64,000 bases of DNA from Streptomyces sp. NBC_00704 (GTDB taxonomy: Bacteria > Actinomycetota > Actinomycetes > Streptomycetales > Streptomycetaceae). The stretch is from contig NZ_CP109000.1 in assembly GCF_036226605.1 (NCBI RefSeq), positions 4,460,501 through 4,524,500 of the forward strand. Reading direction: 5' to 3'. The number at the start of each line of letters is the position of its first letter. Position 1 is the first letter of the stretch. Under the pieces are notes generated by a model. The model was not told where the DNA came from. It ran no database searches and saw only the letters and a list, made by a program, of their open reading frames with translations. A program made the translations under genes and the position numbers. Below are positions 33,503-64,000 of this stretch, piece after piece.

Positions 33503-36349
33503 TTGTCCCCGACCAGCGAGACCGCACACGGCGGCCGCCGACTCGTGATCGTCGAGTCGCCTGCCAAGGCGAAGACGATCAAGGGTTATCTCGGCCCCGG
33601 CTACATCGTCGAGGCCAGCGTCGGGCACATCCGCGACCTTCCCAACGGCGCCGCGGAGGTGCCGGACCAGTACACGGGCGAGGTGCGCCGCCTCGGTGTG
33701 GACGTCGAACACGACTTCCAGCCGATCTATGTCGTCAACGCCGACAAGAGGGCGCAGGTCAAGAAGCTCAAGGACCTCCTCAAGGAGTCCGACGAACTCT
33801 TCCTCGCCACCGATGAGGACCGGGAGGGCGAGGCGATCGCCTGGCACCTCCAGGAAGTCCTCAAGCCGAAGATCCCCGTCAAGCGGATGGTCTTCCACGA
33901 GATCACCAAGGACGCGATCCGGGCCGCCGTCGCCAATCCGCGCCAGCTCAACCAGAAGCTCGTCGACGCCCAGGAGACCCGCCGCATCCTCGACCGCCTC
34001 TACGGCTACGAGGTCTCGCCGGTCCTGTGGAAGAAGGTCATGCCGCGTCTGTCGGCCGGCCGTGTCCAGTCCGTCGCCACCCGTCTCGTCGTCGAGCGGG
34101 AACGCGAGCGCATCGCGTTTCGTTCTGCTGAGTACTGGGACCTGACGGGCACCTTCGCGACCGGCCGCGCGGGAGACTCGTCGGACCCGTCGTCGCTGGT
34201 CGCCCGCCTGCACGCCGTCGACGGCAGGCGGGTCGCGCAGGGCCGCGACTTCGACTCCCTGGGACAACTCAAGAGCGCGAACACCCTCCACCTCGACGAG
34301 GCGAACGCCCGCGCCCTGGCCGCCGCCCTGGAGAACACGCGGTTCGCCGTACGGTCCGTCGAGTCCAAGCCGTATCGGCGCTCGCCGTACGCCCCGTTCC
34401 GTACGACGACGCTGCAACAGGAGGCCAGCCGCAAGCTCGGCTTCGGTGCCAAGGCCACCATGCAGGTCGCGCAGAAGCTGTACGAGAACGGCTTCATCAC
34501 GTACATGCGAACCGACTCCACGACGCTGAGCGACACCGCCGTGTCCGCGGCTCGTGCCCAGGTCACGCAGCTGTACGGGGCCGACTACCTGCCGGTGCAG
34601 CCGCGCACGTACGCCGGGAAGGTCAAGAACGCGCAGGAGGCGCACGAGGCGATCCGCCCCTCCGGCGACCGTTTCCGCACGCCTGCCGAGACGGGCCTCA
34701 GCGGCGACCAGTTCAGGCTCTACGAGCTGATCTGGAAGCGCACGGTCGCCTCCCAGATGAAGGACGCCATCGGCAACAGCGTTACGGTGAAGATCGCCGG
34801 CACGGCGGCCGACGGCCGGGACGCCGAATTCAGCGCCTCCGGCAAGACCATCACCTTCCACGGCTTCCTGAAGGCGTACGTCGAGGGCGCCGACGACCCG
34901 AACGCCGAGCTGGACGACCGCGAGCGCCGCCTGCCCCAGGTGAGCGAGGGCGACGCCCTGTCCGCCGAGGAGATCACGGTCGACGGGCACGCCACGAAGC
35001 CCCCGGCCCGCTACACCGAGGCCAGCCTCGTCAAGGAGCTCGAAGAGCGCGAGATCGGCCGCCCGTCGACATACGCGTCGATCATCGGCACGATCCTCGA
35101 CCGCGGCTACGTCTTCAAGAAGGGCACGGCACTCGTCCCGTCCTTCCTGTCGTTCGCCGTGGTCAACCTGCTGGAGAAGCACTTCGGCCGGCTCGTCGAC
35201 TACGACTTCACCGCCAGGATGGAGGACGACCTCGACCGCATCGCCCGCGGTGAGGCGCGTGCCGTCCCGTGGCTGAAGCGGTTCTACTTCGGCGAGGGCA
35301 GCGGCACGGGCGAGGGCGGCGCCGCCGACGCCGGCAACGGCGACGGCGACCACCTCGGCGGCCTCAAGGAGCTGGTGACCGACCTCGGCGCGATCGACGC
35401 GCGCGAAGTGTCCTCGTTCCCCGTGGGCGACGGCATCGTGCTGCGCGTGGGCCGCTACGGCCCCTACATCGAGCGCGGCGAGAAGGACTCCGAGGGCCAC
35501 CAGCGCGCGGACATCCCCGAGGACCTCGCACCCGACGAGCTGACCGTCGAGCTCGCCGAGGAACTGCTCGCCAAGCCGAGCGGCGACTTCGAGCTGGGCG
35601 CCGACCCGGAGTCCGGCCACCAGATCATCGCCAGGGACGGCCGCTACGGCCCGTACGTCACCGAGGTGCTCCCCGAAGGCACGCCGAAGACCGGCAAGAA
35701 CGCCGTGAAGCCGCGCACGGCCTCGCTGTTCAAGTCGATGTCCCTGGACACGGTGACGCTGGCGGACGCCCTCAAGCTGATGTCCCTGCCGCGTGTCGTC
35801 GGCACGGACGCCGAGGGCGTGGAGATCACCGCGCAGAACGGCCGCTACGGCCCGTACCTGAAGAAGGGCACGGACTCGCGCTCGCTCCAGACCGAGGACC
35901 AGCTCTTCACGATCACGCTCGAAGAGGCGCTGGAGATCTACGCCCAGCCCAAGCAGCGCGGCCGGGCCGCCGCCAAGCCGCCGCTGAAGGAGCTGGGCAC
36001 CGACCCGGTCAGCGAGAAGCCGGTCGTGGTCAAGGACGGCCGCTTCGGGCCGTACGTGACCGACGGCGAGACCAACGCGACCCTGCGCTCCGGCGACAGC
36101 GTCGAGGAGATCACCCCGGAGCGCGGCTACGAGCTGCTCGCCGAGAAGCGCGCCAAGGCGCCCGCCAAGAAGACGGCGAAGAAGGCGACCGCGAAGAAGG
36201 CGACGGCCAAGAAGGCGGCCCCGGCGAAGAAGACGGCCGCCAAGAAGACCACCGCAAAGACGACGACGGCCGCCAAGAAGACGACCACCGCCAAGAAGAC
36301 GACCGCGAAGAAGGCGACGGCCTCCCCGTCGGCCTCCTCGGAGGACTGA
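33503..36349 (+). CDS. topA: DNA topoisomerase I
   Basis: A 948-residue type IA topoisomerase that relaxes negative supercoils. The Toprim motif includes VIVESPAKAKTI and DEDREGEAIAW. The active-site tyrosine is Tyr334 in FITYMRTDS. Instead of zinc fingers, the C-terminal half has four GRYGPY-type modules (GRYGPYIE, GRYGPYVTE, GRYGPYLKK, GRFGPYVTD). It ends in a Lys/Ala/Thr-rich tail of about 70 residues made of AKKTA repeats, which in Streptomyces TopA aids DNA clamping. The start is TTG, with GGAGAG about ten bases upstream and a conserved MSPTSETAHGG beginning. Confidence 0.96.
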   Translation: MSPTSETAHGGRRLVIVESPAKAKTIKGYLGPGYIVEASVGHIRDLPNGAAEVPDQYTGEVRRLGVDVEHDFQPIYVVNADKRAQVKKLKDLLKESDELFLATDEDREGEAIAWHLQEVLKPKIPVKRMVFHEITKDAIRAAVANPRQLNQKLVDAQETRRILDRLYGYEVSPVLWKKVMPRLSAGRVQSVATRLVVERERERIAFRSAEYWDLTGTFATGRAGDSSDPSSLVARLHAVDGRRVAQGRDFDSLGQLKSANTLHLDEANARALAAALENTRFAVRSVESKPYRRSPYAPFRTTTLQQEASRKLGFGAKATMQVAQKLYENGFITYMRTDSTTLSDTAVSAARAQVTQLYGADYLPVQPRTYAGKVKNAQEAHEAIRPSGDRFRTPAETGLSGDQFRLYELIWKRTVASQMKDAIGNSVTVKIAGTAADGRDAEFSASGKTITFHGFLKAYVEGADDPNAELDDRERRLPQVSEGDALSAEEITVDGHATKPPARYTEASLVKELEEREIGRPSTYASIIGTILDRGYVFKKGTALVPSFLSFAVVNLLEKHFGRLVDYDFTARMEDDLDRIARGEARAVPWLKRFYFGEGSGTGEGGAADAGNGDGDHLGGLKELVTDLGAIDAREVSSFPVGDGIVLRVGRYGPYIERGEKDSEGHQRADIPEDLAPDELTVELAEELLAKPSGDFELGADPESGHQIIARDGRYGPYVTEVLPEGTPKTGKNAVKPRTASLFKSMSLDTVTLADALKLMSLPRVVGTDAEGVEITAQNGRYGPYLKKGTDSRSLQTEDQLFTITLEEALEIYAQPKQRGRAAAKPPLKELGTDPVSEKPVVVKDGRFGPYVTDGETNATLRSGDSVEEITPERGYELLAEKRAKAPAKKTAKKATAKKATAKKAAPAKKTAAKKTTAKTTTAAKKTTTAKKTTAKKATASPSASSED

Positions 36350-36492: not shown

Positions 36493-39400
36493 ATGACGCG
36501 AGCCGAGCAGCCAACGGCCCACCACCCGGCCCCGGACGACGCCCTGGTGGCCGACTCCCGCGAGCGCGCAGTGCGCGCCCTGCTGCGCGAACCGCAGCTC
36601 AAGCGCCTCTGGAGCGCGCAGTTGGTGGGCGGAGTCGCAGACGCCCTCGCCCTCCTGGTCTTCGTCCTCCTCGTCCTCCAGGCGGCCATCGCCGAAGGCT
36701 CCTTCGGCGGCGGCTACCGAGGCGTGGCGTTCGCAGTGGCGATCGTCTTCGGGGTACGGATCCTGGCCACCCTCCTCTTCGGCGCCGTCCTGCTGGGCCC
36801 GCTGACGGCACTGACGTCCCCCGAAGGCCCACTCGACCGCCGGTGGACCATGGTCGGCGCGGACGGGCTGCGCGCCGTGCTGCTGATCGTCGCCCCCCTG
36901 TGGATCGACTGGACGCCCGACGACGCACTCGCCCTGCTGCTCGTCACGGTGTTCGTGACGGGCGTCGCCGAACGGTTCTGGACGGTCGCCCGCGAGAGCG
37001 CGGCGCCCGCCCTGCTGCCCGCCCCGCCCCCGGAGGGCGCGACCGTACGACCGCTGCCCGACCACATGGACGCCCTGCGCCGCCTCTCGCTGCGCACCGG
37101 CTTCCTGACCATCCCGCTCGGCGCGGCCACCCTGGTGGTCGCCGCCCTGTTCAACAACCTTCTGGGCACCGGGATCGCCTGGTTCGACCAGCACCAGGCG
37201 GCCCTCGCCTCGTACGTCGCCGGCGGGCTCTTCGCCGGATGCCTGTCGATCGTGACCTTCCTGGAGCTGCCGGCCGTACGCACCCCGCGCCCGCGGTCGC
37301 CCCTCGAAGGCCTGCGCCGCCCCCGGACCGCCACCGGCGTCGACTCGGGCCGCACGGGCGTGATCCCGCTGCTGGTGCTCGCCTGCGCCGCCGTCGCGGG
37401 CGCGATCTCCGCGTCCGTCGCCGTGGCCGTCCTGCACGCCAAGGACCTGGGCGGCGGCCCGGTGCTCTACGGACTCCTCGTGCTCGGGCTGACCGGCGGA
37501 GTCGTCGTCGGCGTCCGCACGGCGCCCAAGGTGCTGGTGTCGCTGTCGCGGCGCCGCCTGCTCGCCCTCGCCATCGCCTTCACGGGCGTGGCGCTCCTCG
37601 CCGCCGGACTGGTCCCGGACGTCACCAGCGTGCTGCTGGTCATGGTCCTCGCGGGCGTCGGCGCGGGCGTCGCCGCCAACACCGGGCACTCCCTGCTCGA
37701 CCAGGAGACCGAGGACCACCGCCGCACGCGCACGACCGAGCACCTGCACGCCGTCGTACGGGTCCTCGTGGCACTGGGCGCGGTGCTCGCCCCGCTGGTC
37801 GCGGCGCTCATCGGGCCGCACCGGCTGGAAAACGGCAAGTTCGTCTTCGCGCACGGCGGGGCCGCCTTCACGCTGATGCTGGTCGGCGCCCTACTGCTCC
37901 CGGTGGCCGCCCTGGTCCTCGCCAAGGTCGACGACCGCTCCGGCGTCCCCCTCAGGAAGGACCTGCGGGACGCACTGATGGGCGGCGACGACCCGGTGAC
38001 GGCGCCCGCCGCGAACGGCTTCTTCATCGCCCTGGAGGGGGGCGACGGCGCCGGCAAGTCCACCCAGGCCGAGGCCCTCGCCGAGTGGATCAGGGCCAAG
38101 GGCCACGAGGTCGTCCTCACGCGTGAGCCGGGGGCCACGCCCGTCGGCAAGCGGCTGCGCTCGATCCTGCTGGACGTCTCCAGCGCCGGCCTCTCGCACC
38201 GCGCGGAAGCCCTGCTGTACGCGGCGGACCGCGCGGAGCACGTCGACACGGTCGTGCGGCCCGCCCTGGAGCGCGGCGCCGTGGTGATCACCGACCGGTA
38301 CGTCGACTCGTCCGTGGCCTACCAGGGCGCGGGCCGCGATCTGTCCCCGACCGAGATCGCACGGATCTCGCGCTGGGCGACGGACGGCCTGGTGCCCCAC
38401 CTGACGGTCCTGCTGGACGTCTCCCCGGAGGCCGCCCGCGAGCGGTTCACGGAGGCCCCCGACCGTCTGGAGTCGGAGCCCGCGGAGTTCCACGCGCGCG
38501 TGCGCGCCGGTTTCCTCACGCTCGCCGCCGCAGACCCCGGCCGCTACCTCGTCGTCGACGCGGCGCAGGAGCCCGAGGCCGTCACCACCGCCGTCCGGCA
38601 CCGGCTCGACCAGCTGCTGCCCCTGTCCGAGGCCGAGATCAAGGCCCAGGAGGAGGCGCGCAGGAAGGCCGAGGAGGAGGCCCGCCGCAAGGCCGAGGAA
38701 GAAGCGGCCCGCAAGGCCGAGGAGGAGCGCCTGGAGCGTGAGCGCCAGGAGCAGCTCGCCAAGCTGCGCGCCGAGGAGGAGGAGCGCAAGCGGCGCGAGC
38801 TGGAGGAGGCGCAGCGGCGCGAGGCCGAACGGCAGGCCGAAGAGGCGCGGCTGCGGGCCGAGGAGGCACGCAAGCGCGCCGAGGAGGAGCGGGCCCGCCT
38901 CATCGCGGAGGAGAAGGCCCGCGCCGAGGAGGAGGCCCGCCGCAAGGCGGAAGAGGAGCGCCGGCGCAAGCAGGCCGAGGAGGAGGCCCGGCTGCGCGCC
39001 GAGGCCGAGAGCCGTCGGCTGGAGAAGCAGCGCAAGGCCGAGGAGGCGCTGCTGCGGGCCGAGGAGGCACGGCGAGCGGCGGAGCAGGCGGCCGCCGCCG
39101 CGCAGCTCGGCCCGAAGCCGGCCCGCTCCGGTCCCCCCGCGGGACCGGCGGTCCCGCCGGAGGCGGTGACCGTGCCCACGCCGGTGGTCACGCCGACGAA
39201 CGCGTCGGGCGGCCCGGTGGACGAGACGGCGGTGCTGCCGCCGGTCCGGACGGACCGGACGGACCGGACGGACCGAACGGACAAGGAGCCCGAGCGGCCC
39301 TCCCGCCCGTCCGCAGGGACCTCCGCGAAGCGGTCTCCCGCCGGGGGAAGGGACGCCGGAGTCACGGACGCCGGGGGGACGGACGCGGAGGTCACGGCCG

Positions 39401-48774: not shown

Positions 48775-51700
48775 TTGTCCAGACCCATACGGCCGCCTCG
48801 CGCGGGCCGCTTCCTCCGGTACACCACCCTGGCGGTGACCGCGCTCATGGCCGGCTCGCTGCTCCAGGCCGAGCCGGCGCTGGCCGCGCCGACGTCGGGC
48901 GGCGTCCGGCACACCTCGCCCGTCGAGGCCGACCGTCCCGTGCCCGGCAAGGCGCTCAAGACCAAGCCGCGCAAGGCGGACGGGCTGGCGCGGGGACCGC
49001 GCCGTGCGCCCCGCGCCGCCTGGCCGGCGGCCGGCTCCGCACTGGTCGAGCTGCCCACGACCACCACGACCACCGGGGCCACCACGACCACCCCGGTCGC
49101 CCCCACCAATCCGTCCGCCCCCTCCGCCTCGTCCGCCTCCTCCGCCCCGTCCGCCCGGGTCCCGTACGCGGGTCGGAAGGCGGCGGGCGCGAAGGGCGCA
49201 CGACCCGCCGTCGCACAACTGCCCGTGCCCGGCCTGCCCGTCCGGCTGTCGGCCGCCCCTGCGGCGACCGGCTCCGCCAGGGCCCAGGTGCGGCTGCTGC
49301 CCAAGGACACCGCCCGCGGCCTCGGCCTCGACGGCGTCCTGGTGTCCGTCGCCGCCGCCGGTCCCGCGAAGGCGTCCGCCGGCGCCCGCAGCGTCGGCGT
49401 CAGCATCGACTACTCCGCGTTCGGGGAGGCCTACGGCGGCGACTACGGCGCGAGGCTGCGCCTGGTCACCCTGCCCTCCTGCGCGCTGACCACGCCGAAG
49501 CTGCCCCGCTGCCGTACGACGACGCCGGTGGCCGGGCGCAACGACAGCGAGAAGCACACGGTCTCCGCGGACTCCGTCGCGCTGCGTCCCGCCGCCTCCG
49601 CCGTGCTCCTCGCGGCGGTGGCCGACCCGGACGGCGGCTCCGCGGGCGCCGGCGACTACACCGCGACCCCGCTGTCGTCGTCCGCCGCATGGCAGACCAG
49701 TCTCCAGACGGGCGACTTCTCCTGGTCCTACCCGCTGACCGCGCCGACCGTGCCCGGCGGACTGCTGCCCAAGCTGTCCGTCGGCTACTCCTCCGGCGCC
49801 GTCGACGGCCAGACCACCTCCAGCAACAACCAGTCCAGCTGGGTGGGTTCGGGCTTCGACATGAACACCGGCTTCATCGAACGGCACTACAAGCCGTGCG
49901 GCGAGGACGGCTCCTGGAGCAGGGACGACGCCCCCGGCGACCAGTGCTGGGGCTACGACAACGCCACCATCAGCTTCAACGGCCGCGCGGGTGAACTGAT
50001 CCCGGCCGGCAAGGACGTCTGGCGGATCCGCAACGACGACGGGACCCGCGTCGAGAAGCTCAGCGACGCCGCCGGGCGCGCGAACGGCGACAACGACGGC
50101 GAGTACTGGAAGGTGACGACCACCGACGGCCTCCAGTACTTCTTCGGCTACAACCGCCTCCCCGGCTGGAGCACGGGCAAGCCCGAGACGAAGTCCACCT
50201 GGACCGTGCCCGTCTTCGGCAACGACGCCGACGAGCCCTGCCACCAGGCCACCTTCGCCGCGTCCTGGTGCCGGCAGGCCTGGCGCTGGAACCTCGACTA
50301 CGTGGTCGACCTCCAGGGCAACGCCATGTCGTACTGGTACGACCCGGAGACCAACTCCTACGGCCGCAACCGCGTGGCCGCCGACGACACCTCCTACGAG
50401 CGCGGCGGCGTCATCGACCGCATCGAGTACGGCCGGCGCAGCGACACGATGTACTCCGCCAAGGCGGTCGGCAAGGTCGTCTTCACCAACACCGAGCGGT
50501 GCATCGAGGCGACGGCCGCCGCCTGCGCCGCCACGGAGATCGAGAAGAACCCCAACCGGTGGGAGGACACGCCCTACTACCTCAACTGCAAGGCGGGCAC
50601 CGACTGCGACAAGGGCCGCTTCTCGCCGTCCTTCTGGTCCCGCAAGCGGCTGACCAAGGTCACCACGCAGGTCCTTCAGCCCTCGGGCGACTACGCGGAC
50701 GCCGACGCCTGGACCTTCGCGCAGAAGTGGGGCGACGCGGACATCGACCGCTCCCTGCTCCTGGAGTCGATCCAGCACACCGGCCTGTCCGCCACCCCGT
50801 CGATCACGCTGCCCAAGGTGACCTTCGGCTACAAGCAGGGCCCCAACCGGCTCGACCGGCTCGGTGACGGCATCGCGCCCTTCATCAAGTACCGCCTCGC
50901 CAACATCTCCGACGAGTCGGGCGGCTCGATCGACGTCGCCTACTCGGAGCCCGAGTGCGACTTCGCCGCACTGCCCGCGCCCGAGACCAACACCACCCGC
51001 TGCTTCCCGCAGTACTGGCAGCCCGCCGGCGCCCCGGACCCCGTCCGGGAATGGTTCAACAAGTACGTCGTCACCCAGGTCGTCGCGACCGACCGCACCG
51101 GCGGCTCCGACGACATGGTCACCAGGTACGCCTACCTGGACGGCGCCGCCTGGCACTACGCCGACGACGACGGACTGACCAAGGAGAAGTACAAGACCTG
51201 GTCGCAGTGGAACGGCTACGGCCGCGTCCAGGTGCAGTCGGGCGGCTGGGACGGCATGCGCTCGCTGAGCGAGCACTGGTTCCTGCGGGGCATGGACGGC
51301 GACCGCAAGAACGCCGCCGGCGGCACCAAGGCGGTGACCGTCTCCGACGGCGAGGGCGGCAGCCTCACCGACCACGAGGCCTTCCAGGGCACCGAGTTCA
51401 AGACCGTCGACTACACCGGGCCGGGCGGCACGGTGGAGAGCAAGACCGTCACCACGCCCTGGCGGAAGGAGACCGCCAAGCGGGTGCGGGACTGGGGCAC
51501 GGTCACCGCGAACCTGACCGGCACGGCCGCGACCCGCACCTGGGACCGCAAGCACGACGGCGGCTGGCAGCAGACGTCCACCACGTCGAAGTACGACGAC
51601 CTGGGACGCGTCATCGAGGACAGCGACCTCGGTGAGGCCGCGTCCGGCGACGAGCAGTGCACCACCACCCAGTACGCCGACAACGCCACCACCTGGCTGC

Positions 51701-54700
51701 GGTCCCTGCCCAAGCAGGTCGAGGTCCTCGACGTGCCGTGCGGCACGGCCGTCACCTACCCCGCCCACCTGCTCTCCCGCAAGCGCAACACCTACGACTC
51801 CCTCGCCTTCGGCGCGGCGCCGACCCGCGGCCTGCTCACCAAGCAGGAGGAACTGGTCGGCTACACGGGGACCACGCCCGACTACCGCTGGAAGACCAGC
51901 GCCTACGACGGCTACGGGCGGGTCAAGTCCACCGCCGACTCCTCGGGGGCGACCAGCACGACCGTCTTCACCGCGGCGACCACCGCCAAGCCCGCCACGC
52001 TCACCGTGACCGGCACCGAACTCGTCGCGGGCACGCCGTCCAGCGCGCAGTCCGTCGTGACAGAGTTCGACGGCGTCCGTTCGCTGCCCACGGCCTCGAT
52101 CGACGCCAACGGCCGGCGCAGCGACGCCGAGTTCGACGCGCTGGGCCGGCTCACCAAGGCCTGGCTCGCCAACCGGCCCAAGGCCTCCAGCCCCACGCCG
52201 AGCCTGGAGTACGGCTACCGGATCGCGGAGGGCGACATCGCCGCGGTCGTCGCCCGGAAGCTGACGAACGACGGCGGCCAGCAGTCGTCCTACATCCTCT
52301 ACGACGGCTGGCTGCGGCCACGGCAGTCGCAGTCCGCGGGCCCCGACGGCGGCCGGCTGATCGACGACACGTTCTACGACAGCCGCGGTCTGGTGGCGCG
52401 CAAGTACGCGCCGTACTACGCGGCCAAGGCGCCGGAGCCCAAGCTCTTCGGCGTGACCGAGCAGGGCTCGGTGGACACCCAGACGGTCAGCGAGTACGAC
52501 GGCCTGGGCCGCCAGACCGTCAGCCGGACGCTGCGCGGCAACGGCGTGGGCGTGGAGCTGTCCCGCACCACGACCACCTACAGCGCCGACCTCGTCACCG
52601 TCGACCCGCCGGAGGGCTCCACGCCGACCGCGACGGTGCTCGATGCGGCGGGCCACACCACCGAGCTGCGCGAGTTCCACGGAGCCTCGCCGGCCGGCGC
52701 CTACGACAGCACCCTGTACGAGCACGACGCCGACGGGCACCTGACGAAGGTCACCGCCCCCGACAAGACGGTCCGCACCTACACCTACGACCTGCTGGGA
52801 CGTCAGCTCACCTCCACCGACCCCGACTCGGGCGCCACCAGGACGACCTACGACGACGCGGACCGGGTCACCACCGCCACCGACGTCGCCCGTCAGAAGA
52901 CGCTCGCGTTCGTCTACGACCGGCTCGGCCGGCACACCGAGACCCGTGAGAACTCCGTCACGGGCCCGCTGCTGGCCTCCTGGACCTTCGACACCGTGCG
53001 CAAGGGTTACCTGGGCAGCTCAACCCGCTACGTCGGAGGCGCGGGCGGCGCCCGGTACACGCAGACGATCAACGCCTACGACAACCTGTACCGTCCGCTG
53101 CGCACGACCGTGTCGATCCCGTCCACGGAACCCGGACTGGGCGGCTCCGCGGGCGTCAGCTACCAGACCAACACCACCTACAACCTCGACGGGACCGTCA
53201 AGTCCGCCAGCTACCCGGCGGCGGGGAACCTGCCCGCCGAGGTGGTCGCACCGACCTACGACGGCCTCCAGCGCGTGGTGAAGGCCGAGGGCCTCAGCAC
53301 ATACGTCGGCAACGCGCGTTACAGCCTCACCGGGAAGCTGGAGGAGCTGGAGCTGGGCGACGCGGGCAAGCGGGTCTGGATCAACAACACGTACGAGCCG
53401 GGCACCCAGCTGCTGTCCACCAGCCGCGCCGAGCGCGAGGGCGTGGCCGGGGTCGACCGGGCGGTCACCTACGCCTACGACGAGTCGGGCAACGTCGACT
53501 CGGTCACCGACGCCTCCCGTCAGGGCACCGACCGGCAGTGCTTCCGCTACGACTACCTCCAGCGGCTGACCGAGGCGTGGACCCCGGCCGGGGACTGCGC
53601 GTCGGCCCCCGCCGCCACCGCCCTCGGCGGACCCGCGCCCTACTGGCAGTCGTACACCTACACGGCGGCGGGCAACCGCGACACCGACACCCGGCACGAC
53701 CCCACCGGGACGACCGCGGGAGACGTCACCCGCACCTACCGCTACAACGAGAACGGCAAGGGGCAGCCGAACACCCTGACGTCGGTCTCCTCGACGGGAG
53801 CCGTCACCGGCAAGGACACGTTCACCTACGAGCCCGGCGGCGGCACGGAGTCCCGCACGCCGAGCGGCGGGGCGAAGCAGACGTTCGCGTGGGACTCCGA
53901 GGGCAACCTCGCCTCCGTCACCGAAGGCTCCGCGACCACCCAGTACCTGTACGACGCCGACGGCAAGCGGCTGATCAGCCGCGGTCCCGGCGGTGTGTCG
54001 ACGCTGTACCTGGGAGCCACGGAGATCACCTGGACGAAGGCCACCGGGAAGACGACCGCCCGGCGGTACTACGACCTCGGCGGCGCGAGCGCCGTGCGTC
54101 AGGACGACGGCAAGGTCTCCTTCGTCGTCGCCGACCCGCACGGCACCGGTGAACTCGCCGTCGACGCCGCCACCCAGGCCCTGGTGCAGCGCCGCACCAT
54201 GCCGTTCGGCGAGGTCCGCGGCACGGTGCCGCCGGCCGGAAGCTGGCCGGGCACCAAGGGCTTCGTCGGCGGCACGCAGGACGCGACCGGATTCACCCAC
54301 CTCGGGGCCCGCGAGTACGAGCCGGGGACGGGCCGCTTCCTCAGCGCCGACGCGGTGATCGACCCGACGGACCCGCAGCAGCTCAACGGCTACGCCTACG
54401 GGCACAACAACCCGCTGAAGCGCAGCGACCCGACGGGCAACTACGACCCGGACATGATGGCCTGGTGCCAGGACAACCCCGGCAAGTGCCAGGGCGGCCG
54501 GATCATCCCGAGCAAGCCCTCGAAGCCCAAGAAGAACCCCAACCCCGGGATGGGCAAGAAGCGCGCCCATATGCCGACGGTGCAGAACGAGCGCCTCGAG
54601 AAAATCATCAAGGAGCTGTACATCCGGCCGCAGGTGGCGGACAAGGATGTGGTGGGCGACGGAAAGACGGCCACGGCCCTCATCGAGGAAATGAACGAGG

Positions 54701-55284
54701 GCAAGGGCTTCGGCGGTGACGGAACGAAATGGCACATCGAGAAGACGGTCGACAAACTCGGCGGCCTTCGCGATCTGCTGGAGGACGACCGCAAGGCCAA
54801 GGAGGACACCGGAAAGGGAATCCTCTCCGACTCCGACCGCAAGGTCGCGCTCAACGAGTCGAAGGAACTCTGGACGGCCCTCAACGCGGACGACGTCGCC
54901 GGGGCGGTGACGAAGCGGGTGAAGGCGTCCGGCTACGACAAGACGGTGTCCAAGCTCGTCAAGTCCGTCCTCTCGGCGGAGTCGATGAGCGAGGTCACCG
55001 GGCAGAAGTTCGCCATTCCCGAGAACCTGCACCCGAAGGCCCCGCAGCGGGCCGTGCCCACCGGCGAGAGGGTCAAGGGCCGGGGATTCGCCAAGGCCTT
55101 CGGGGTGGTGGGCGGCGCCGCCAGCGTCGCGCAGTTCCCGGTGGACGTCTACAACTACGGCGTCGGGGAAGCGGCGAAACGGCTCAGCGAATCCCTCACG
55201 GACCCGCTGAACGTCGTGCCCGACGGTCAGGGCGCGGGATGCGTGTTCTTCAATGACTGCTATGTGGTGACGCCGATGGCGTGA
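48775..55284 (+). CDS. RHS/YD-repeat polymorphic toxin-like protein
   Basis: A 2169-residue secreted protein. The signal peptide ends near ALAAP (residue 38). A Thr/Ser/Pro linker follows, then a SpvB/TcdB-like shell and many YD repeats (YDDLGRV, YDGLGRQT, YDLLGRQLT, YDYLQRL). The RHS core closes with YEPGTGRFLSADAV and GYAYGHNNPLKRSDPTG around residue 1885, where these shells are normally cleaved. The last 284 residues are the variable part. They include GDGKTATALIEEMNEGKG and LSDSDRKVAL, reminiscent of a domain seen at other RHS ends, and a terminal hydrophobic patch with two Cys. No known toxin catalytic motif is visible. TTG start with AAGGA upstream. Confidence 0.87.
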   Translation: MSRPIRPPRAGRFLRYTTLAVTALMAGSLLQAEPALAAPTSGGVRHTSPVEADRPVPGKALKTKPRKADGLARGPRRAPRAAWPAAGSALVELPTTTTTTGATTTTPVAPTNPSAPSASSASSAPSARVPYAGRKAAGAKGARPAVAQLPVPGLPVRLSAAPAATGSARAQVRLLPKDTARGLGLDGVLVSVAAAGPAKASAGARSVGVSIDYSAFGEAYGGDYGARLRLVTLPSCALTTPKLPRCRTTTPVAGRNDSEKHTVSADSVALRPAASAVLLAAVADPDGGSAGAGDYTATPLSSSAAWQTSLQTGDFSWSYPLTAPTVPGGLLPKLSVGYSSGAVDGQTTSSNNQSSWVGSGFDMNTGFIERHYKPCGEDGSWSRDDAPGDQCWGYDNATISFNGRAGELIPAGKDVWRIRNDDGTRVEKLSDAAGRANGDNDGEYWKVTTTDGLQYFFGYNRLPGWSTGKPETKSTWTVPVFGNDADEPCHQATFAASWCRQAWRWNLDYVVDLQGNAMSYWYDPETNSYGRNRVAADDTSYERGGVIDRIEYGRRSDTMYSAKAVGKVVFTNTERCIEATAAACAATEIEKNPNRWEDTPYYLNCKAGTDCDKGRFSPSFWSRKRLTKVTTQVLQPSGDYADADAWTFAQKWGDADIDRSLLLESIQHTGLSATPSITLPKVTFGYKQGPNRLDRLGDGIAPFIKYRLANISDESGGSIDVAYSEPECDFAALPAPETNTTRCFPQYWQPAGAPDPVREWFNKYVVTQVVATDRTGGSDDMVTRYAYLDGAAWHYADDDGLTKEKYKTWSQWNGYGRVQVQSGGWDGMRSLSEHWFLRGMDGDRKNAAGGTKAVTVSDGEGGSLTDHEAFQGTEFKTVDYTGPGGTVESKTVTTPWRKETAKRVRDWGTVTANLTGTAATRTWDRKHDGGWQQTSTTSKYDDLGRVIEDSDLGEAASGDEQCTTTQYADNATTWLRSLPKQVEVLDVPCGTAVTYPAHLLSRKRNTYDSLAFGAAPTRGLLTKQEELVGYTGTTPDYRWKTSAYDGYGRVKSTADSSGATSTTVFTAATTAKPATLTVTGTELVAGTPSSAQSVVTEFDGVRSLPTASIDANGRRSDAEFDALGRLTKAWLANRPKASSPTPSLEYGYRIAEGDIAAVVARKLTNDGGQQSSYILYDGWLRPRQSQSAGPDGGRLIDDTFYDSRGLVARKYAPYYAAKAPEPKLFGVTEQGSVDTQTVSEYDGLGRQTVSRTLRGNGVGVELSRTTTTYSADLVTVDPPEGSTPTATVLDAAGHTTELREFHGASPAGAYDSTLYEHDADGHLTKVTAPDKTVRTYTYDLLGRQLTSTDPDSGATRTTYDDADRVTTATDVARQKTLAFVYDRLGRHTETRENSVTGPLLASWTFDTVRKGYLGSSTRYVGGAGGARYTQTINAYDNLYRPLRTTVSIPSTEPGLGGSAGVSYQTNTTYNLDGTVKSASYPAAGNLPAEVVAPTYDGLQRVVKAEGLSTYVGNARYSLTGKLEELELGDAGKRVWINNTYEPGTQLLSTSRAEREGVAGVDRAVTYAYDESGNVDSVTDASRQGTDRQCFRYDYLQRLTEAWTPAGDCASAPAATALGGPAPYWQSYTYTAAGNRDTDTRHDPTGTTAGDVTRTYRYNENGKGQPNTLTSVSSTGAVTGKDTFTYEPGGGTESRTPSGGAKQTFAWDSEGNLASVTEGSATTQYLYDADGKRLISRGPGGVSTLYLGATEITWTKATGKTTARRYYDLGGASAVRQDDGKVSFVVADPHGTGELAVDAATQALVQRRTMPFGEVRGTVPPAGSWPGTKGFVGGTQDATGFTHLGAREYEPGTGRFLSADAVIDPTDPQQLNGYAYGHNNPLKRSDPTGNYDPDMMAWCQDNPGKCQGGRIIPSKPSKPKKNPNPGMGKKRAHMPTVQNERLEKIIKELYIRPQVADKDVVGDGKTATALIEEMNEGKGFGGDGTKWHIEKTVDKLGGLRDLLEDDRKAKEDTGKGILSDSDRKVALNESKELWTALNADDVAGAVTKRVKASGYDKTVSKLVKSVLSAESMSEVTGQKFAIPENLHPKAPQRAVPTGERVKGRGFAKAFGVVGGAASVAQFPVDVYNYGVGEAAKRLSESLTDPLNVVPDGQGAGCVFFNDCYVVTPMA

Positions 55285-57187: not shown

Positions 57188-58117
57188 ATGGTGGACGTGG
57201 GGGACGCGGTCGGCACGGGAGACGCGGCGGGGCCGAGGATCGCCGTCGCCGTGGTGACGATGGGGGACCGGCCCGCCCAGGTGGACGCCCTGCTGGAGTC
57301 GGTGGCCAAGCAGGACCTCGCCCCCGCCCGCATCGTGATCGTCGGCAACGGCTGTGTGCTCCCCGAGTTCGCCGCGCGGCTCTCCCTCCCCGGCGAGGTC
57401 ACCACGATCGACGTCGACGAGAACCTCGGCTGCCCCGGCGGCCGCAACGTCGGTCTGGCCCGGCTGCGCGAGTTCGGGGACGTCGACGTCGTCGTCGAAC
57501 TGGACGACGACGGGCTGCTCGTCGACGCCGACGTCCTGCGCCGCGTCCGCGACCTGTACGCGGCCGACCCGCGGCTGGGCATCGTCGGCTTCCGCATCGC
57601 GGACGAACACGGGGAGACCCAGCGCCGGCACGTGCCGCGCGTCGGCGCCTCCGACCCCTTGCAGGGCGGGTACGTCACCGGCTTCCTCGGCGGCGGCCAC
57701 GCCCTGAGCACGGCCATGCTCGAGGAGACGGGCGACTGGCCCGCCGAGTTCTTCTTCGCCCACGAGGAGACCGACCTGGCCTGGCGCGCCACCGACGCCG
57801 GCTGGAAGATCCTCTACGCGCCCGAGCTGCTGCTCCAGCACCCCAAGACCTCGCCCGCCCGGCACGCCATCTACCACCGTGTCACCGCCCGCAACCGGGT
57901 CTGGCTCGTCCGGCGCAATCTTCCGCTGCCGCTCGTCCCGGTCCACCTGGGGGTCTGGATCGCCGTCACGCTGCTGCGCACGCGCTCGCTCGCCGGACTG
58001 AGGGCGTGGTTCGGCGGGTTCGCGGAAGGCGTGCGGAAGCCCGCGGGCCCGCGCCGGCCCATGAAGTGGCGGACGGTGTGGCGGCTCACCCGGCTGGGCA
58101 GGCCGCCGGTCATCTGA
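57188..58117 (+). CDS. Family 2 glycosyltransferase
   Basis: A 309-residue GT-A glycosyltransferase, probably adding sugars to an envelope polysaccharide or glycolipid. The first strand is AVAVVTMGDRP. DENLGCPGGRNVGL lines the nucleotide site. VELDDDGLL supplies the metal-binding Asp cluster, and EETDLAWRATDAGW is the acceptor/catalytic base region. A hydrophobic stretch near residue 255 (VPVHLGVWIAVTLL) may associate with the membrane. The ATG has GAGAGGG close upstream. The gene ends just before a strong terminator. Confidence 0.87.
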   Translation: MVDVGDAVGTGDAAGPRIAVAVVTMGDRPAQVDALLESVAKQDLAPARIVIVGNGCVLPEFAARLSLPGEVTTIDVDENLGCPGGRNVGLARLREFGDVDVVVELDDDGLLVDADVLRRVRDLYAADPRLGIVGFRIADEHGETQRRHVPRVGASDPLQGGYVTGFLGGGHALSTAMLEETGDWPAEFFFAHEETDLAWRATDAGWKILYAPELLLQHPKTSPARHAIYHRVTARNRVWLVRRNLPLPLVPVHLGVWIAVTLLRTRSLAGLRAWFGGFAEGVRKPAGPRRPMKWRTVWRLTRLGRPPVI

Positions 58118-58144
58118 GTCCGCGGGCCGTCCGGGGCACAGGGC

Positions 58145-58179
58145 GGGCCTCGGTCGTTCACCTCCGACGACCGAGGCCC
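58145..58179 (+). terminator. Terminator after the glycosyltransferase
   Basis: GGGCCTCGGTCGT (58145-58157) pairs perfectly over 13 bp with ACGACCGAGGCCC (58167-58179). It is followed by CCCTATG without a T run. Confidence 0.82.
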
Positions 58180-58537
58180 CCTATGCCCCCGAAACCGGCC
58201 GCAGCGGCGACACTCCCCCGAGCTGCGCGTCGATACGCGCGCGCCGTCGGGCCGGATCCGAGAGTCTGATCACACCAGGCCGCGCCAACGGATCGCTAAC
58301 ATGTGGCCAATGGTTCGCCGCGTCGTCGCTGGTCATCTGGCCTGAAGTCGCTGGACGACCCGGGGCGCCGGCCGCACCGACGGCCGTCTCCGACGGGCAT
58401 CGCCCGGTGCACCGCCGGGCCCCGGGTGGCGGGAAACCGGCGGCCGGGGGCGGAATTCCGCCAGCACGGCGGGGTACCCGCCCGGAGCGCGGGCGACTCG
58501 ACAGGGCGACCCGGCGGGGGCCGGGCGCGGAAGGGCG
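58180..58537. other. Intergenic region before the regulator
   Basis: These 358 bases hold no gene I can support. TAACAT at 58297-58302 is a possible -10 box for the regulator on the + strand, but there is no matching -35 and the leader would be about 230 bases. The region 58340-58537 is very GC-rich. Confidence 0.35.
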
Positions 58538-61500
58538 ATGGGCGGCGTGATGCGGCGGTACGGGCTGCGGTTCGGGCTGCTGGGCCCCCCGGTCCTCTAC
58601 CCGGCCGGCCTCGCGGACCTCGCCGACGCCGCCGAACCGGCCGACCTGGCCGAATCGGCCGAACCGGTCGATTCGGCGGAGGCCGCCGCCGGATCCGGGA
58701 GCGTGGCCACGCCCTTCACCGGGCACGCGGCCCACCCCCACCCCCACCCCCACCCCCACCCCCACCCCCACCCCCGGCCCGAAGCCGGCGCCGCCGCCTC
58801 CGGGGACGTCCGACGCGCCCGCGCCCCCTACGAGGCCGTCCGCAGCCCCAAGGTGCGCGCGCTGCTGGCCGCCCTGCTCCTGGAAGCGGGCCGGACCGTC
58901 CCCGTCGACTCGCTGAAGGAGGCCCTGTGGGGCGGCGCTCCGCCGGCGTCCGCCCAGGCCTCGCTGCACAACCACGTGACCCGGCTGCGCCGGCTGCTCG
59001 ACGACCCGCGACGGCTGCGGGCCGTGGGGTCCGGCTATCGGCTCCGGGTGGAACAGGGCGAACTCGATGTCCATGTCTTCGACCGGCACGTCGCCGCCGC
59101 CCGTGGTGCGCACGCCGCCCGGAACTGGGAACGGGTCCTGTGCGAGTGCGCGGCGGCGCTCGCGCTGTGGCGGGGCGCCCCGCTCAGCGGGCTCCCCGCC
59201 GAACTGGGCGGATACGCCTTCGTACGACGCCTGCGGGAAGCCCGGCTGCTCCTGCTCGAATGGCGGCACGACGCCGAACTCGCCCTCGGGGACGGACGGT
59301 TCGAGCACCGGCTGCCGGAGCTGACGGCCCTGGCCGCCGAACATCCGCTGCGCGAGTCCTTCCACCGCCAGCTGATGCTCGCCCTGCACCGCACCGGCCG
59401 CCAGGCCGAGGCCCTCGCCGTCCATCGCGACCTGCGCACCCGTCTCGTCGAGGAACTCGGCGTCGAGCCCGGCCCGGCCGTCCGCGAGGCCCATGTGGAG
59501 GTCCTCGGCCCCACGGCCGACGCCCCCGCCGCCACCGGCGCGACCGCACCCGCGCTCTCCGTCGCCGGTCCCGCGGCCCGGTCTGCCGCTTCCGCCGCTG
59601 CCGCTTCCGCCGCCGCCTCTTCCGCCGTTGCCGGGCCCGAGGGCTCCGAGGATGAGTCCAAGGGCAGGTCCGAGAGCAGGTTCGAGGTCGAGGGTGAGGG
59701 CGAGCCCGCGGTCCGGCGGGTGCGGCACGCCCGCCCCGCCCAACTGCCCCCGCCCCCGGCCTGCTTCATCGGCCGCGTCGACACCCTGCGCCGGCTCCGC
59801 GGCACCCTCGCGCCGGGCGTCGGCGAGGTTCTGAGAGAAGGGCTCGACGACGGATCCGACGGCCGGCCTGGCGACGGGCCTGGCGACGGGCTGGGGGAGG
59901 GTCTCGGCGGGCGGGGTCCGGCCGTCGTGGTGCTCAGCGGCACCGCCGGCGTCGGCAAGAGCGCGCTTGCGCTGCACGCCGCGCACGCCATGCGGGAACG
60001 TTTCCCCGACGGTCAGCTCTACGTCCACCTGCACGGCGCGACTCCCGGCGTGACCCCGCTGACCGCAGGCCAGGCGCTCACCGCCCTCCTGCGCGACCTC
60101 GGAGTCGAACCCTGCCGCATCCCCGAACACCCCGACGCGGCGGCCGCGTTGCTGCGCACCGTGCTCGCCCCCACCCGCACCCTGATCGTCCTGGACGACG
60201 CGGCGACCGCCGCCCAGGTCCGCCCACTGCTGCCGGCCGGCGCCGGGTGCGCGGTGATCGTCACCAGCCGCTCGCCGCTGACCGCCCTGGACGGCGCTCA
60301 CCGCGTCCCGCTCGCTCCGCTGTCCGCCGGGGACAGCGCCGCGCTGCTGCGGGCCGCCGCCGGCCCCGGCGAGGGGCGGGCGGAGCTGGGCGCGGGCCAC
60401 CCGCTCGTCGGCCTCACCGGCCGCCTGCCGCTCGCCCTGCGCGTCGTCGCCGCCCGCCTCGCCGCGCGCAGCGCCCTCACGCCGGACATGCTGGCCCGTC
60501 AACTGGCAGAGGCGGAGAGCAGGTTGGCGCATCTGGAGTACGACGACCTCAGCGTCCGCCGGTCCCTGGCCGTGGCGCACGACGCGCTCGCCGCCTCGGA
60601 GCGCGAGGCCGACCGGGACGCGGCCCGGGTGCTGCGGCGCATCGGCGCGCTCGACCTCCCGGAGTACGGCGTCCCGCTGCTGTCCCGCCTCCTCGACGCC
60701 GACGAGTCCCGCGCCGAGGCCGCCCTGGACCGTCTCGTCGACGTGGCCCTGCTGGAGGAGCGGGCCTACGGCCGCTACACCCCCCACGACCTGGTGCGCG
60801 ACTTCGCCCGCGAACTCGCGGCGACCGGCCCCGAGACAGATCCGGCAACCGGTCCCGCAACCGGTCCCGCGACCGGGGCTGCGGCCGGGGCTGTGGCCGG
60901 ACTTGCGACCGGGCCTGTGGTCGGGGCTGCGGCCGGTCCCGCAATCGGGCCTGCGGCCGGTCCCGCGACTGGGCCCGCAACCGGGCCGGTGGCCGGGGCT
61001 GCGACCGGGCCCGCGACCGGCCGGCAGGTCCGGGCGCCCGCCGTCGCGCGGGCCCGGACGGTCGCCCTGCACTGGTACGCGGCCGTGGCCGAGCGTGCGC
61101 TGGTCGCCGTCGTCGAGGCGGGTCTCGATCTGGAGGACCGGCGCCGGCCGACCTCGGCCCAGCCCGTCGCCCATACGGCGTATCTCGCGGGGGCGCCCGC
61201 CTTCGCCGGCCCCGAGGAGGCCTTCGGGTGGGTGGAAACGGAGCTGGAGAACATCGTCGCCCTGGTGGCGGGCAGCGCGGCCGGGGCAGCCGGAGCGGCT
61301 GGGGCGGCCGGGGCAGCCGGAGCGGCCGGGGCAGCTGGGGACGTCGAGGCGGTGGGGCGGGTCGAGGCGGTGGAGGGGGCCGGGGAAGTCCGGAAAGTCC
61401 GGGAAGTTCGGGGAGTCGGGTCGTCGGCCGGTTCGGCCGCTTCCGAGCCGGGGCTCGTCTCCACGTTGCTGCGGCTTCTGCTGCCCTGCCTGCAACGGCG

Positions 61501-62332
61501 CGGACGGGTCGCCGAGATGGAGGTGCTCGGGCGGACCGCGCTGCGGGTGGCGCGGCTGCTCGGCGACGAGGCCGCCGAGGCCTACGCACTGGGCGACCTC
61601 GCGGGCCTGCACTTCCTGACCGGCCGCCAGAGCGACGCGCTCGACCTCAACGGCCGCGCCCTGGCCATCTGGCTGCGGCTGGGCCGCCTCTCCTGGATCC
61701 GGCGCTGCCTCAACAACCGGGGCCTGCTGCTGGAGGCGCTCGGGCGGTACGAGGAGTCCGGGACGGCGCTGCGCCACAGCCTCCAGCTCTCACGCCGGCT
61801 GGGCGACCCGCACGGCGAGGCCGTGGCCCACAGCCATCTCGGCAACCTGTACGAGCACACCGACCCGCGCGCCGCCATCGAGCAGCACCGGCGGTCCCTG
61901 GCCATCGGGACCGGAATCGGTGCCGTCATCGTGCAGCACTCGGCGCACTGCAACATCGGCTACGCCCACCTCGCGCTGGGGGAGCCGGCCGCCGCGCTGC
62001 CGCACTTCGAGGAGAGCCTGCGCCTTCTCGGCGCGCACGGGGACTGGCACGGCGAGTCGCAGACGCGGCTGGGCCTCGTGCGCGCCCTGCGCCCGCTGGG
62101 CCGGGCCGAGCGCGCGCTGGGGGAGTGCGCCGAGCTGCTGCGCCGGGCCGAGGCCCGCGCCGACCGCTACACGGCCGCGCTGGCCCGCCACCAGCACGGT
62201 CTGCTGCTGCGGGAGCGGGGAGAGCAGGAGCGCGCGTTCGAGGAGTGGCGGTCGGCGCTCGACGCGCTGGACGGCACGGACGAGACGGCGGTCGCCGTGG
62301 AGCTTCGCGAGCTGCTCGCCGGCCGGGGCTGA
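58538..62332 (+). CDS. AfsR/SARP-type regulator with NB-ARC and TPR domains
   Basis: A 1264-residue transcription regulator. The OmpR-type winged helix begins LRFGLLGPP and resumes at SPKVRALLAALLLEAGRTV. It is split by about 75 residues of low-complexity sequence with seven His-Pro units. A bacterial activation domain follows (about 165-325), then an STAND ATPase with P-loop SGTAGVGKSAL near residue 473. TPRs run from about 985 to 1260. Two more expansions occur, a PATGPATGP-type run near 770-830 and AGAAGAAG near 910-930. AfsR-type proteins activate antibiotic genes. ATG 58538 has GGAAGGG close upstream; ATG 58550 is an alternative. Confidence 0.85.
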   Translation: MGGVMRRYGLRFGLLGPPVLYPAGLADLADAAEPADLAESAEPVDSAEAAAGSGSVATPFTGHAAHPHPHPHPHPHPHPRPEAGAAASGDVRRARAPYEAVRSPKVRALLAALLLEAGRTVPVDSLKEALWGGAPPASAQASLHNHVTRLRRLLDDPRRLRAVGSGYRLRVEQGELDVHVFDRHVAAARGAHAARNWERVLCECAAALALWRGAPLSGLPAELGGYAFVRRLREARLLLLEWRHDAELALGDGRFEHRLPELTALAAEHPLRESFHRQLMLALHRTGRQAEALAVHRDLRTRLVEELGVEPGPAVREAHVEVLGPTADAPAATGATAPALSVAGPAARSAASAAAASAAASSAVAGPEGSEDESKGRSESRFEVEGEGEPAVRRVRHARPAQLPPPPACFIGRVDTLRRLRGTLAPGVGEVLREGLDDGSDGRPGDGPGDGLGEGLGGRGPAVVVLSGTAGVGKSALALHAAHAMRERFPDGQLYVHLHGATPGVTPLTAGQALTALLRDLGVEPCRIPEHPDAAAALLRTVLAPTRTLIVLDDAATAAQVRPLLPAGAGCAVIVTSRSPLTALDGAHRVPLAPLSAGDSAALLRAAAGPGEGRAELGAGHPLVGLTGRLPLALRVVAARLAARSALTPDMLARQLAEAESRLAHLEYDDLSVRRSLAVAHDALAASEREADRDAARVLRRIGALDLPEYGVPLLSRLLDADESRAEAALDRLVDVALLEERAYGRYTPHDLVRDFARELAATGPETDPATGPATGPATGAAAGAVAGLATGPVVGAAAGPAIGPAAGPATGPATGPVAGAATGPATGRQVRAPAVARARTVALHWYAAVAERALVAVVEAGLDLEDRRRPTSAQPVAHTAYLAGAPAFAGPEEAFGWVETELENIVALVAGSAAGAAGAAGAAGAAGAAGAAGDVEAVGRVEAVEGAGEVRKVREVRGVGSSAGSAASEPGLVSTLLRLLLPCLQRRGRVAEMEVLGRTALRVARLLGDEAAEAYALGDLAGLHFLTGRQSDALDLNGRALAIWLRLGRLSWIRRCLNNRGLLLEALGRYEESGTALRHSLQLSRRLGDPHGEAVAHSHLGNLYEHTDPRAAIEQHRRSLAIGTGIGAVIVQHSAHCNIGYAHLALGEPAAALPHFEESLRLLGAHGDWHGESQTRLGLVRALRPLGRAERALGECAELLRRAEARADRYTAALARHQHGLLLRERGEQERAFEEWRSALDALDGTDETAVAVELRELLAGRG
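58731..58775. repeat. Hexanucleotide CCCCCA repeat in the regulator gene
   Basis: About seven units of CCCCCA encode seven His-Pro dipeptides inside the DNA-binding domain. The other strand is GGGGGT repeated, able to form G-quadruplexes. Length variation by one unit keeps the frame, as each unit is six bases. Confidence 0.9.
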
Positions 62333-64000
62333 CTACTTGGCGTCGGCATAGCACTCCACCACCGCGACGGTGAACGGAAACCGCACCGGCGTCTCCCCGA
62401 AGGTGAGCCGCCCGGCCAGGTCGGAGGCCTCGCGGATCGCCGCGGCCACCTGCTCGGCCTCCTCCTCGGGACAGTGCACGATCACCTCGTCGTGCTGGAA
62501 GAAGACCAGCTCGGCGGCCATCCCGGCGCAGGCCTGGCGCAACGCGGCGAGCATCAGCAGCGCCCAGTCGGCCGCGCTGCCCTGGACGACGAAGTTGCGG
62601 GCGAAGCGCCCCCGCGCGCGGGCGTTGGTCGACGCGTATCCCGGCACCCATTCCTGTCCGTCGCCCTCCCCGCCGTCGCCGTCGCCCCGCCGCCGTCTCG
62701 CCGCGTGGCTCGCGCCGGGGCCGTCGGCGTCGTCCTCGGGGAGCGGGATGCCGGCCTCCTCCGACCCCGCGTCGCCGGTCCGGGCCGCGGGCGGGCAGGT
62801 CCGGCCCAGCCAGGTCCGCACCAGCCGGCCCTCCTCGCCGGCCTTGGCGGCCTCGTCGACGTAGGCCACCGCGCGCGGGAAACGGCGGCGCAGCGCCGCG
62901 AGGTTCTTCAGGCCGTCGCCGGAGGTCTGGCCGTAGACCGCGCCGAGGACGGCCAGCTTGGCCTGGCCGCGGTCGCCGGAGAAGGCGCGCTCGGAGACGG
63001 ACTGGTAGAGGTCGCTCTCCCGGCCCGCGACCTCCATCAGCCCGGGGTCGCGGGAGATCGCCGCCAGCACGCGGGGCTCCATCTGGTCGGCGTCGGCGAC
63101 GACGAGCCGCCAGCCCGGGTCGGCGACGACGGCTCGCCGGATGATCTTGGGGATCTGCAGCGCGCCTCCGCCGTTGGTCACCCACCGGCCGGTGACGGTG
63201 CCGTGCGCGAGGAACTCCGGGCGGAACCGCCCGTCGCGCACCCAGTCCTGGAGCCAGGACCAGCCGTGGGCCACCCAGATGCGGTACAGCTTCTTGTACT
63301 CGATCAGCGGCTTCACGGCCGGGTGGTCGAGGGACTCGATCTCCCAGCGCCGGGTCGACCGGACCCTGATCCCGGCCTGCGCGAAGGCCTTGACGACGTC
63401 GGCGGGCAGGTCGGGGCGGACCCGGCGGCCGAAGGCGGCCGAGACCTCGTCGGCCAGCTCGGCCAGCCGCCGGGGCTCGCCGCCGCCCGCGTAACGCTCG
63501 CCGAGCAGGTCGTGCAGGACCGCGCGGTGCACCGGGGCGCTCCAGGGCAGCCCGGCCCGGTTCATCTCGGCGGCCACCAGCATCCCGGCCGACTCGGCCG
63601 CCGTCAGCAGCCGCATCCGCTCCGGGTGCAGCGTCAGTTCGTGGCGCCGCTGCTGGTCGGCGTAGACGGCGAGAAGGTCGTCGAGGGGCAGCCGGGCGGC
63701 GGCCCGCGCTTCGAACAGCGATGACTGCGCGCCGGGGGCGGCCGCGCGCGAGGGCGGATCAGGCGGTACGGGACCGCCGCGCAGCCGGGCCAGTGCGGCG
63801 GCCGCCGAGCGGGGTTCGCCCGACCGGCCCTCGTGGCCCAGCAGAAGCGTCTCGGCGTCCTCCACGTCGTAGCACCGCTCCACCCGCACCCCCGCGGCGA
63901 GCAGCGACGGATAGACCTCGGCCGTGGAGCGCCAGACCCAGCGGGCGACGTCGGGCCGCTCGCGCACGGCACGGGCGAGGTCGGGCTCGCGCAGCACCGG
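62333..64000 (-). CDS. Family A DNA polymerase (PolA-like), 5' end beyond window
   Basis: The C-terminal 555 residues of a DNA polymerase I-type enzyme, with the start beyond the right edge. Motif A is VVADADQMEPRVLA in place of DYSQIELR. The template-contact TGRWVT and motif B RGQAKLAVLGAVYGQ are present, and motif C is FQHDEVIVHCP. All key Asp, Arg and Lys are kept. Between motif B and motif C is an insertion of about 50 residues rich in Arg, Gly and Asp (ARRRRGDGDGG), absent from E. coli Pol I. Actinobacteria carry a second such polymerase, annotated as a bifunctional 3'-5' exonuclease/polymerase, and this fits. It converges tail to tail with the regulator. Confidence 0.85.
   Translation of the reverse strand, partial: PVLREPDLARAVRERPDVARWVWRSTAEVYPSLLAAGVRVERCYDVEDAETLLLGHEGRSGEPRSAAAALARLRGGPVPPDPPSRAAAPGAQSSLFEARAAARLPLDDLLAVYADQQRRHELTLHPERMRLLTAAESAGMLVAAEMNRAGLPWSAPVHRAVLHDLLGERYAGGGEPRRLAELADEVSAAFGRRVRPDLPADVVKAFAQAGIRVRSTRRWEIESLDHPAVKPLIEYKKLYRIWVAHGWSWLQDWVRDGRFRPEFLAHGTVTGRWVTNGGGALQIPKIIRRAVVADPGWRLVVADADQMEPRVLAAISRDPGLMEVAGRESDLYQSVSERAFSGDRGQAKLAVLGAVYGQTSGDGLKNLAALRRRFPRAVAYVDEAAKAGEEGRLVRTWLGRTCPPAARTGDAGSEEAGIPLPEDDADGPGASHAARRRRGDGDGGEGDGQEWVPGYASTNARARGRFARNFVVQGSAADWALLMLAALRQACAGMAAELVFFQHDEVIVHCPEEEAEQVAAAIREASDLAGRLTFGETPVRFPFTVAVVECYADAK

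Follow-up and report, generated by a model that had tools for sequence, protein, structure and literature searches.

We found that the DNA-binding domain of a large SARP regulator in Streptomyces sp. NBC_00704 is interrupted by an in-frame insert, and that the loop carrying it is variable between species and group-specific. The DNA-binding core is near-constant; one hairpin tip, by contrast, accommodates up to ~80 inserted residues and is filled anew between close species. The insert is probably a low-complexity, disordered loop at the tip of the N-terminal beta hairpin, fed by slippage and tolerated by a working regulator. Variability and group specificity come directly from the comparison of homologues; slippage, disorder and passivity of the loop are what we infer from it.

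The regulator and the insert in its winged helix

The gene lies on the plus strand at 58538..62332 of the window, the whole 64,000-nucleotide stretch of DNA that was analysed, in a genome of 8.2 Mb on three contigs. The open reading frame encodes 1264 amino acids, with an equally plausible start at ATG 58550, and was identified as a large SARP regulator by its Pfam domains (Trans_reg_C, BTAD, NB-ARC, TPR); its core is under purifying selection. The OmpR-type winged helix Trans_reg_C was matched at residues 103-169 (33.7 bits, cut-off 26.2) and BTAD at residues 176-323 (59063..59506, plus strand; E 1.3e-40, 139.5 bits, cut-off 22.1). NB-ARC scored 31.2 bits (cut-off 23.5) and TPR_12 63.6 bits (cut-off 30.1). 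The protein thus has the winged helix, BTAD, NB-ARC and TPR of the large SARP regulators (SARP, NB-ARC, TPR).

Two neighbours of the gene were conserved. A convergent gene of the DNA polymerase A family (Pfam DNA_pol_A; 62333..63997, minus strand) faces the regulator in 95 of the 96 loci with enough flank, and a glycosyltransferase family 2 gene (Pfam; 57188..58117, plus strand, its start set by comparison with homologue L016) lies upstream in the same orientation in 79 of 105 loci. The role in secondary metabolism that the first-pass annotation had given to the regulator had the family name as its sole basis; these neighbours lend it no support, and neither does the score of 376.3 bits against the AfsR equivalog NF053617 (NCBIfam), whose cut-off is 1430 bits. 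An intergenic block at 58185-58320, upstream of the regulator, contained CACTCCCCCGAG and ATCGCTAACAT among strings in which each base was kept in at least 90% of 105-106 homologues. In these homologues a median of 237 bases separates its end from the end of strand 1, and it is probably a promoter or leader; none of the Rfam families scored above its cut-off there. Just behind the glycosyltransferase gene, a GC-rich hairpin at 58130-58193 is likely the terminator of that gene. It gave a match to mir-4523 (Rfam), far below cut-off, which was rejected as a chance match. Further upstream, 48775-55284 holds an ORF of 2169 amino acids that appeared RHS-like by eye, with a similar ORF in L016.

The insert splits the winged helix. 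Upstream of it sits the first beta strand (LRFGLLGPPVLY), whose codons at 58562..58600 on the plus strand (GLRFGLLGPPVLY) are conserved in homologues, and behind it follows the rest of the domain (KVRALL and onward: helix 1, HTH and wing; 58850..59044, plus strand), placed by Pfam Trans_reg_C and by alignment to AfsR (8hvr). The loop between strand 1 and helix 1 occupies 58601..58849 (plus strand) and measures 83 residues from strand 1 to the K of KVRALL. Set against the commonest homologue length of 12, the net insertion is ~71 residues; the insertion of 75 residues described at first pass is therefore present, at a slightly smaller size. Part of the loop consists of imperfect 9/18/27-base repeats rich in Ala, Glu, Pro and Asp codons (58616..58688, plus strand; TRF). 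A second part, at 58731..58775, is a perfect (CCCACC)x7.5 array (100% matches) with a G-rich minus strand that forms a potential quadruplex sequence (PQS). Positions 58733-58774 encode seven His-Pro pairs, and the whole loop has eight histidines. That hexamers could be gained or lost without frameshift, as had been proposed, holds, since units of 6 bases preserve the frame.

The array is a rare object. Four tandem hexamer units (24 bases) occurred at a single place in the whole 8.2-Mb genome, so the array is not a matter of chance. It was the longest perfect hexamer array in 364 kb of its own genome (the window and 15 further stretches, each of 20 kb), where the next had 5.2 copies, and fifth in length among perfect arrays of any unit, the four that exceeded it having longer units. 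Among 392 genomes of the same genus, taken to be Streptomyces, 54 (its own included) had the 24-base pattern somewhere, at ~64 separate places after merging; such arrays are therefore uncommon, not singular, in the genus. A control with the pattern reversed was uninformative, since reversal yields the same repeat in a shifted register. Elsewhere in the window, tandem repeats with evident codons were seen by eye at 36155-36322 (Lys/Ala/Thr-rich) and 38640-39004 (Ala/Glu-rich).

Loop length and filling among homologues

The SARP core found a match in 44 of 150 genomes (E up to 1e-58) and in 104 of 392 genomes (E up to 1e-80), the own genome being included in both counts, and two named Streptomyces relatives were added. 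We read 114 homologous stretches, the window's among them, and kept 106, leaving out L189 (a duplicate of L017, with no difference over the compared part and a contig of equal length) and the seven rows L117-L123 (core identity below 64%). L018, which matched part of NB-ARC only, was left out of the set. Each genome set contains one genome per species, and all figures of variation given here are between species. A search of a plasmid collection in 'near' mode gave no match for the gene.

Loop length ranged from 10 to 90 residues over the 106 rows. Exactly 12 residues were found in 27 loops, at least 20 in 54 and at least 30 in 39, and three loops exceeded the 83 residues of the window. The fillings differed even among close species: Gly/Pro/Ala, Gly-His-Ser, Val-Gln-Pro and Ala-Gly-Ala were among those seen elsewhere. 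Gly, Asp, Pro and Ser were abundant in loops of at least 20 residues, where Leu made up 2.1% of the residues as against 17.5% in the core. The His-Pro run is therefore not a conserved part of the loop: a run of at least two units was present in the window and in none of the other 105 loops, five of which had a single His-Pro.

This distribution bears on the idea that the loop senses metal, its alternating histidines binding Ni, Zn or Cu and making the regulator metal-responsive. Seven of the eight histidines do alternate with Pro, and metal-binding proteins have been linked with His-rich low-complexity regions in the portion of PMC6821194 that was available. The lack of a His-Pro run in every other loop, that of the 98%-identical homologue included, makes the idea highly improbable.

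That homologue, L016 from Streptomyces sp. IBSBF 2953, is the nearest to the regulator, with the same gene order and a SARP core of 98% identity. Across 223 core codons the two differed by 47 silent and 4 amino-acid changes (dN/dS 0.028, dS 0.30), a ratio that places the SARP core under strong purifying selection; in the 20 codons ending with strand 1 there were 3 silent and 0 amino-acid changes. For NB-ARC and TPR, dN/dS was 0.26 and 0.225, respectively. The loop of L016 has 69 residues, is made of Gly/Pro/Ala repeats, and hardly aligns with the 83 of the window. Turnover of the filling has therefore been nearly complete within a dS of ~0.3, during which the domain stood nearly still. Forced alignment of the two loops gave a dN/dS of 1.27, a value from which drift and positive selection are inseparable.

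The same pair and the full set bear on whether the insert is genuine. An incorrect gene model, or a gene in decay with an untranslated insert, would accord with the missed AfsR equivalog cut-off and with the frame changes in a few homologues. We regard it as extremely improbable, as strand 1, upstream of the insert, is without amino-acid change against L016, the core is constrained as described, GC by codon position within the loop (88/66/92%) is coding-like, and strand 1 and helix 1 lie in one frame in 106 of 106 rows, the window's own included. The insert is thus real, in frame and within the DNA-binding domain, and a different gene model, which the first-pass annotation had allowed for, does not remove it. 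For annotators this means that alignment gaps in such regulators are real and not wrong gene models. Gene-model artefact and metal sensing, as well as the quadruplex reading considered below, were set aside on these comparative grounds (106 rows and the L016 pair).

Loop length was then read on a quick tree of the core with 109 rows, three of L117-L123 serving as outgroups and 36 of 106 inner branches being weak. One clade of 31 rows had 26 loops of exactly 12 residues, the remaining five forming one subclade; in another, of 74 rows, loops measured 10-90 residues, 51 of them at least 20 and none exactly 12. Loops of at least 20 residues thus made up 51 of 74 in the one clade against 3 of 31 in the other. 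Over the whole tree, changes between short and long numbered at least 12 (threshold 20) to at least 18 (threshold 25), as raw counts with no shuffle control in which gain and loss are indistinguishable. We also compared 35 distinct sequences of other SARP-like proteins, obtained from 40 loci of the own genome and of relatives after leaving out one without a core match and four repeats; L023 and L039 among them are distant homologues of the same gene (<60% identity). From the LG of strand 1 to the start of the core they had 12-19 residues, against 85 in the window. The long turn is therefore a property of the group, in that sample.

Place of the turn in the fold

The closest solved relative of the regulator is AfsR of Streptomyces coelicolor (PDB 8hvr, 8jke, 8k60), which has the same domain order of SARP, NB-ARC and TPR and whose winged helix and BTAD align at E 6.3e-38. 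Its turn is short, ~11 residues against 83, and by alignment, with an inferred numbering offset of 20, corresponds to about residues 37-45 of AfsR. In the available text of the structural study, the named contacts of AfsR to DNA and RNA polymerase begin at S46, at the start of helix 1 (PMC10936776), and none of the contact residues named there falls within the turn. Loss of DNA binding is accordingly not expected by default. According to the same text, contacts to the polymerase flap are made by helix 1, by 'beta2' and by the second sheet, and the BTAD helices stand on the first sheet (PMC10936776), so that the turn does have partners close by. Read from the alignment with the same inferred offset, S46, W74, P79, R92 and R94 of AfsR are identical here. 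E76 and E77, in contact with sigma and beta-prime according to the passages available (PMC10936776), align with Gly and Ala, and Q48, R59, S80, Q81, R87 and T88 also differ. With eight contacts changed, likeness to AfsR in function is therefore partial, and the target and the polymerase contacts may differ. An AlphaFold model (three sequences) was unusable, with a mean pLDDT of 52, values below 50 for residues 1-177 and no usable winged helix. EmbR of Mycobacterium tuberculosis (PDB 2fez) also matched over winged helix and BTAD (E 5.5e-32), with the match starting at helix 1; EmbR differs by an added FHA domain, as stated in the part of PMC10936776 that was available.

Given this surrounding, the loop might itself be under selection as a flexible element whose length matters, for instance by hindering or helping SARP dimer formation, polymerase contact or BTAD packing, its sequence being free. 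In the accessible text on AfsR (PMC10936776), contacts are indeed named for the strand that follows the turn and for the first sheet, every length among the homologues keeps the frame, and the concentration of long loops in one clade, with 26 of 31 exactly 12 residues in the other, could mean selection and not tolerance. Several subclades of the long clade have loops of only 10-17 residues, however, so that no minimum length is kept, and we consider selection for loop length unlikely.

We favor a tolerated loop as the most likely reading. Slippage during replication and the duplication of GC-rich codon repeats would add and remove in-frame units, and the inserts would persist because the tip presumably sits at a distance from the residues in contact with DNA and RNA polymerase. 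On this account the regulator should keep an AfsR-like fold and DNA-binding mode, although its precise target and its contacts to polymerase may not be those of AfsR. The loop would be a largely passive appendage, with the His-Pro tract as a recent, lineage-specific example. Slippage is suggested by the purity of the array together with the turnover between species.

Repeats, linkers and comparison with known systems

The first-pass annotation had counted two more expansions downstream in the gene. Further variable segments do exist, and the count was too low: four vary in length. The linker L1 from BTAD to NB-ARC has 87 residues (59474..59734, plus strand; 25-330 in 89 readable rows), its first residues overlapping the end of the Pfam BTAD match, and a segment before the P-loop, L1b, has 54 residues (59777..59938, plus strand; 21-142 in 89 readable rows). 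The segment after NB-ARC, L2, contains 12-base repeats of the Ala-Thr-Gly-Pro type (60841..61020, plus strand; TRF), and the segment before the TPR region, L3, contains 9/27-base repeats encoding Ala-Gly-Ala (61277..61340, plus strand; TRF). Taken whole, L2 measured 73-261 residues in 37 readable rows and L3 95-156 residues in 36, lengths that take in some structured sequence. Loop length showed no correlation with the length of L1 or L1b (Spearman -0.15 and -0.11, n=89), which does not help the view that the whole gene is hypermutable.

The array had also been noted for its capacity to form a G-quadruplex on the minus strand. The sequence potential is real: the site has the strongest G4Hunter score in the window (-3.36), is the sole one with an absolute score of at least 3, and nowhere else in the window do four runs of at least 4 G follow one another with loops of 1-3 bases. 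A DNA-level element might follow from this: transcription or replication would be slowed by a quadruplex on the minus (template) strand, or by an i-motif on the plus strand, and the gene regulated in that way. A PQS was present, however, in 9 of 106 loops, five times on the minus and four times on the plus strand; quadruplex potential is therefore not conserved at the site, and we judge such an element very improbable. One homologue (L159, genome G322) carries the hexamer of the window's array in the segment ahead of its P-loop, in a frame that gives Thr-Pro; this points to a process at the level of DNA and not to selection for His-Pro. Taken together with the occurrence of a PQS on either strand, it agrees better with mutation than with selection of either His-Pro or a quadruplex. 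Beside its Thr-Pro run, linker L1 of L159 holds many tandem repeats of ~13 residues (DDxAGGAGLTTS-like).

Among the 90 rows with a TPR match, three (L178, L079 and L180) had a frame change before TPR. That of L178 (genome G218) lies around an 11-unit GACGCC array and that of L079 (genome G009) in linker L1, each at or close to linker repeats; the frame changes may be real switching or sequencing errors.

Bacterial contingency loci carry short tandem repeats in the coding region and switch within a strain. The (CCCACC)x7.5 array likewise is a short tandem repeat within a gene, with the difference that changes in hexamer number here keep the frame. The regulator might accordingly be tuned in a contingency-like manner, hexamer number changing often within a species, each length giving a different activity and the variation itself being selected. 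A perfect array of frame-keeping 6-base units, rapid turnover between species and the three frame changes, with that of L178 around its hexamer array, speak for such tuning. We nevertheless hold it to be quite unlikely, for the His-Pro run occurs in 1 of 106 loops, the turn is without a named AfsR contact residue, and the frame changes, which could be sequencing errors, sit in other linkers. A broader form, in which repeat-driven change of loop and linker length acts as an evolutionary, possibly within-population, adjuster, would have slippage at hexamer arrays grade activity by way of the loop and the linker frame changes of L178 and L079, if real, sometimes switch the downstream domains off; this we consider improbable. 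The tolerated, slippage-fed loop remains the reading that we prefer.

SARPs and repeat-derived disordered regions are each already known. A hypervariable winged-helix insert in one syntenic SARP group was not described among the matches listed for several queries, a minority of which combined SARPs with disorder or insertion; these matches comprised titles, starts of abstracts and passages and included few subscription papers. The syntenic group provides a natural set of variants with which to gauge the amount of disordered sequence that a winged helix can tolerate.

By gene number, SCO3435 of S. coelicolor is a candidate orthologue of the regulator. In the part of PMC6637917 available it is listed as a transcriptional regulator and is numbered beside SCO3434, DNA polymerase I; a regulator beside a DNA polymerase gene is thus common to both loci. 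Expression of SCO3435 was raised when topoisomerase I levels changed in either direction, according to the same portion of that study (PMC6637917).

The archaeal Borg elements offer a further comparison. Their tandem repeats, as described in the available part of PMC9879509, evolve fast, arose independently and create disordered regions in proteins. Repeat-derived disordered protein regions are common to the Borgs and to the loop described here, but the Borgs are extrachromosomal elements, and their case is not one of a SARP regulator.
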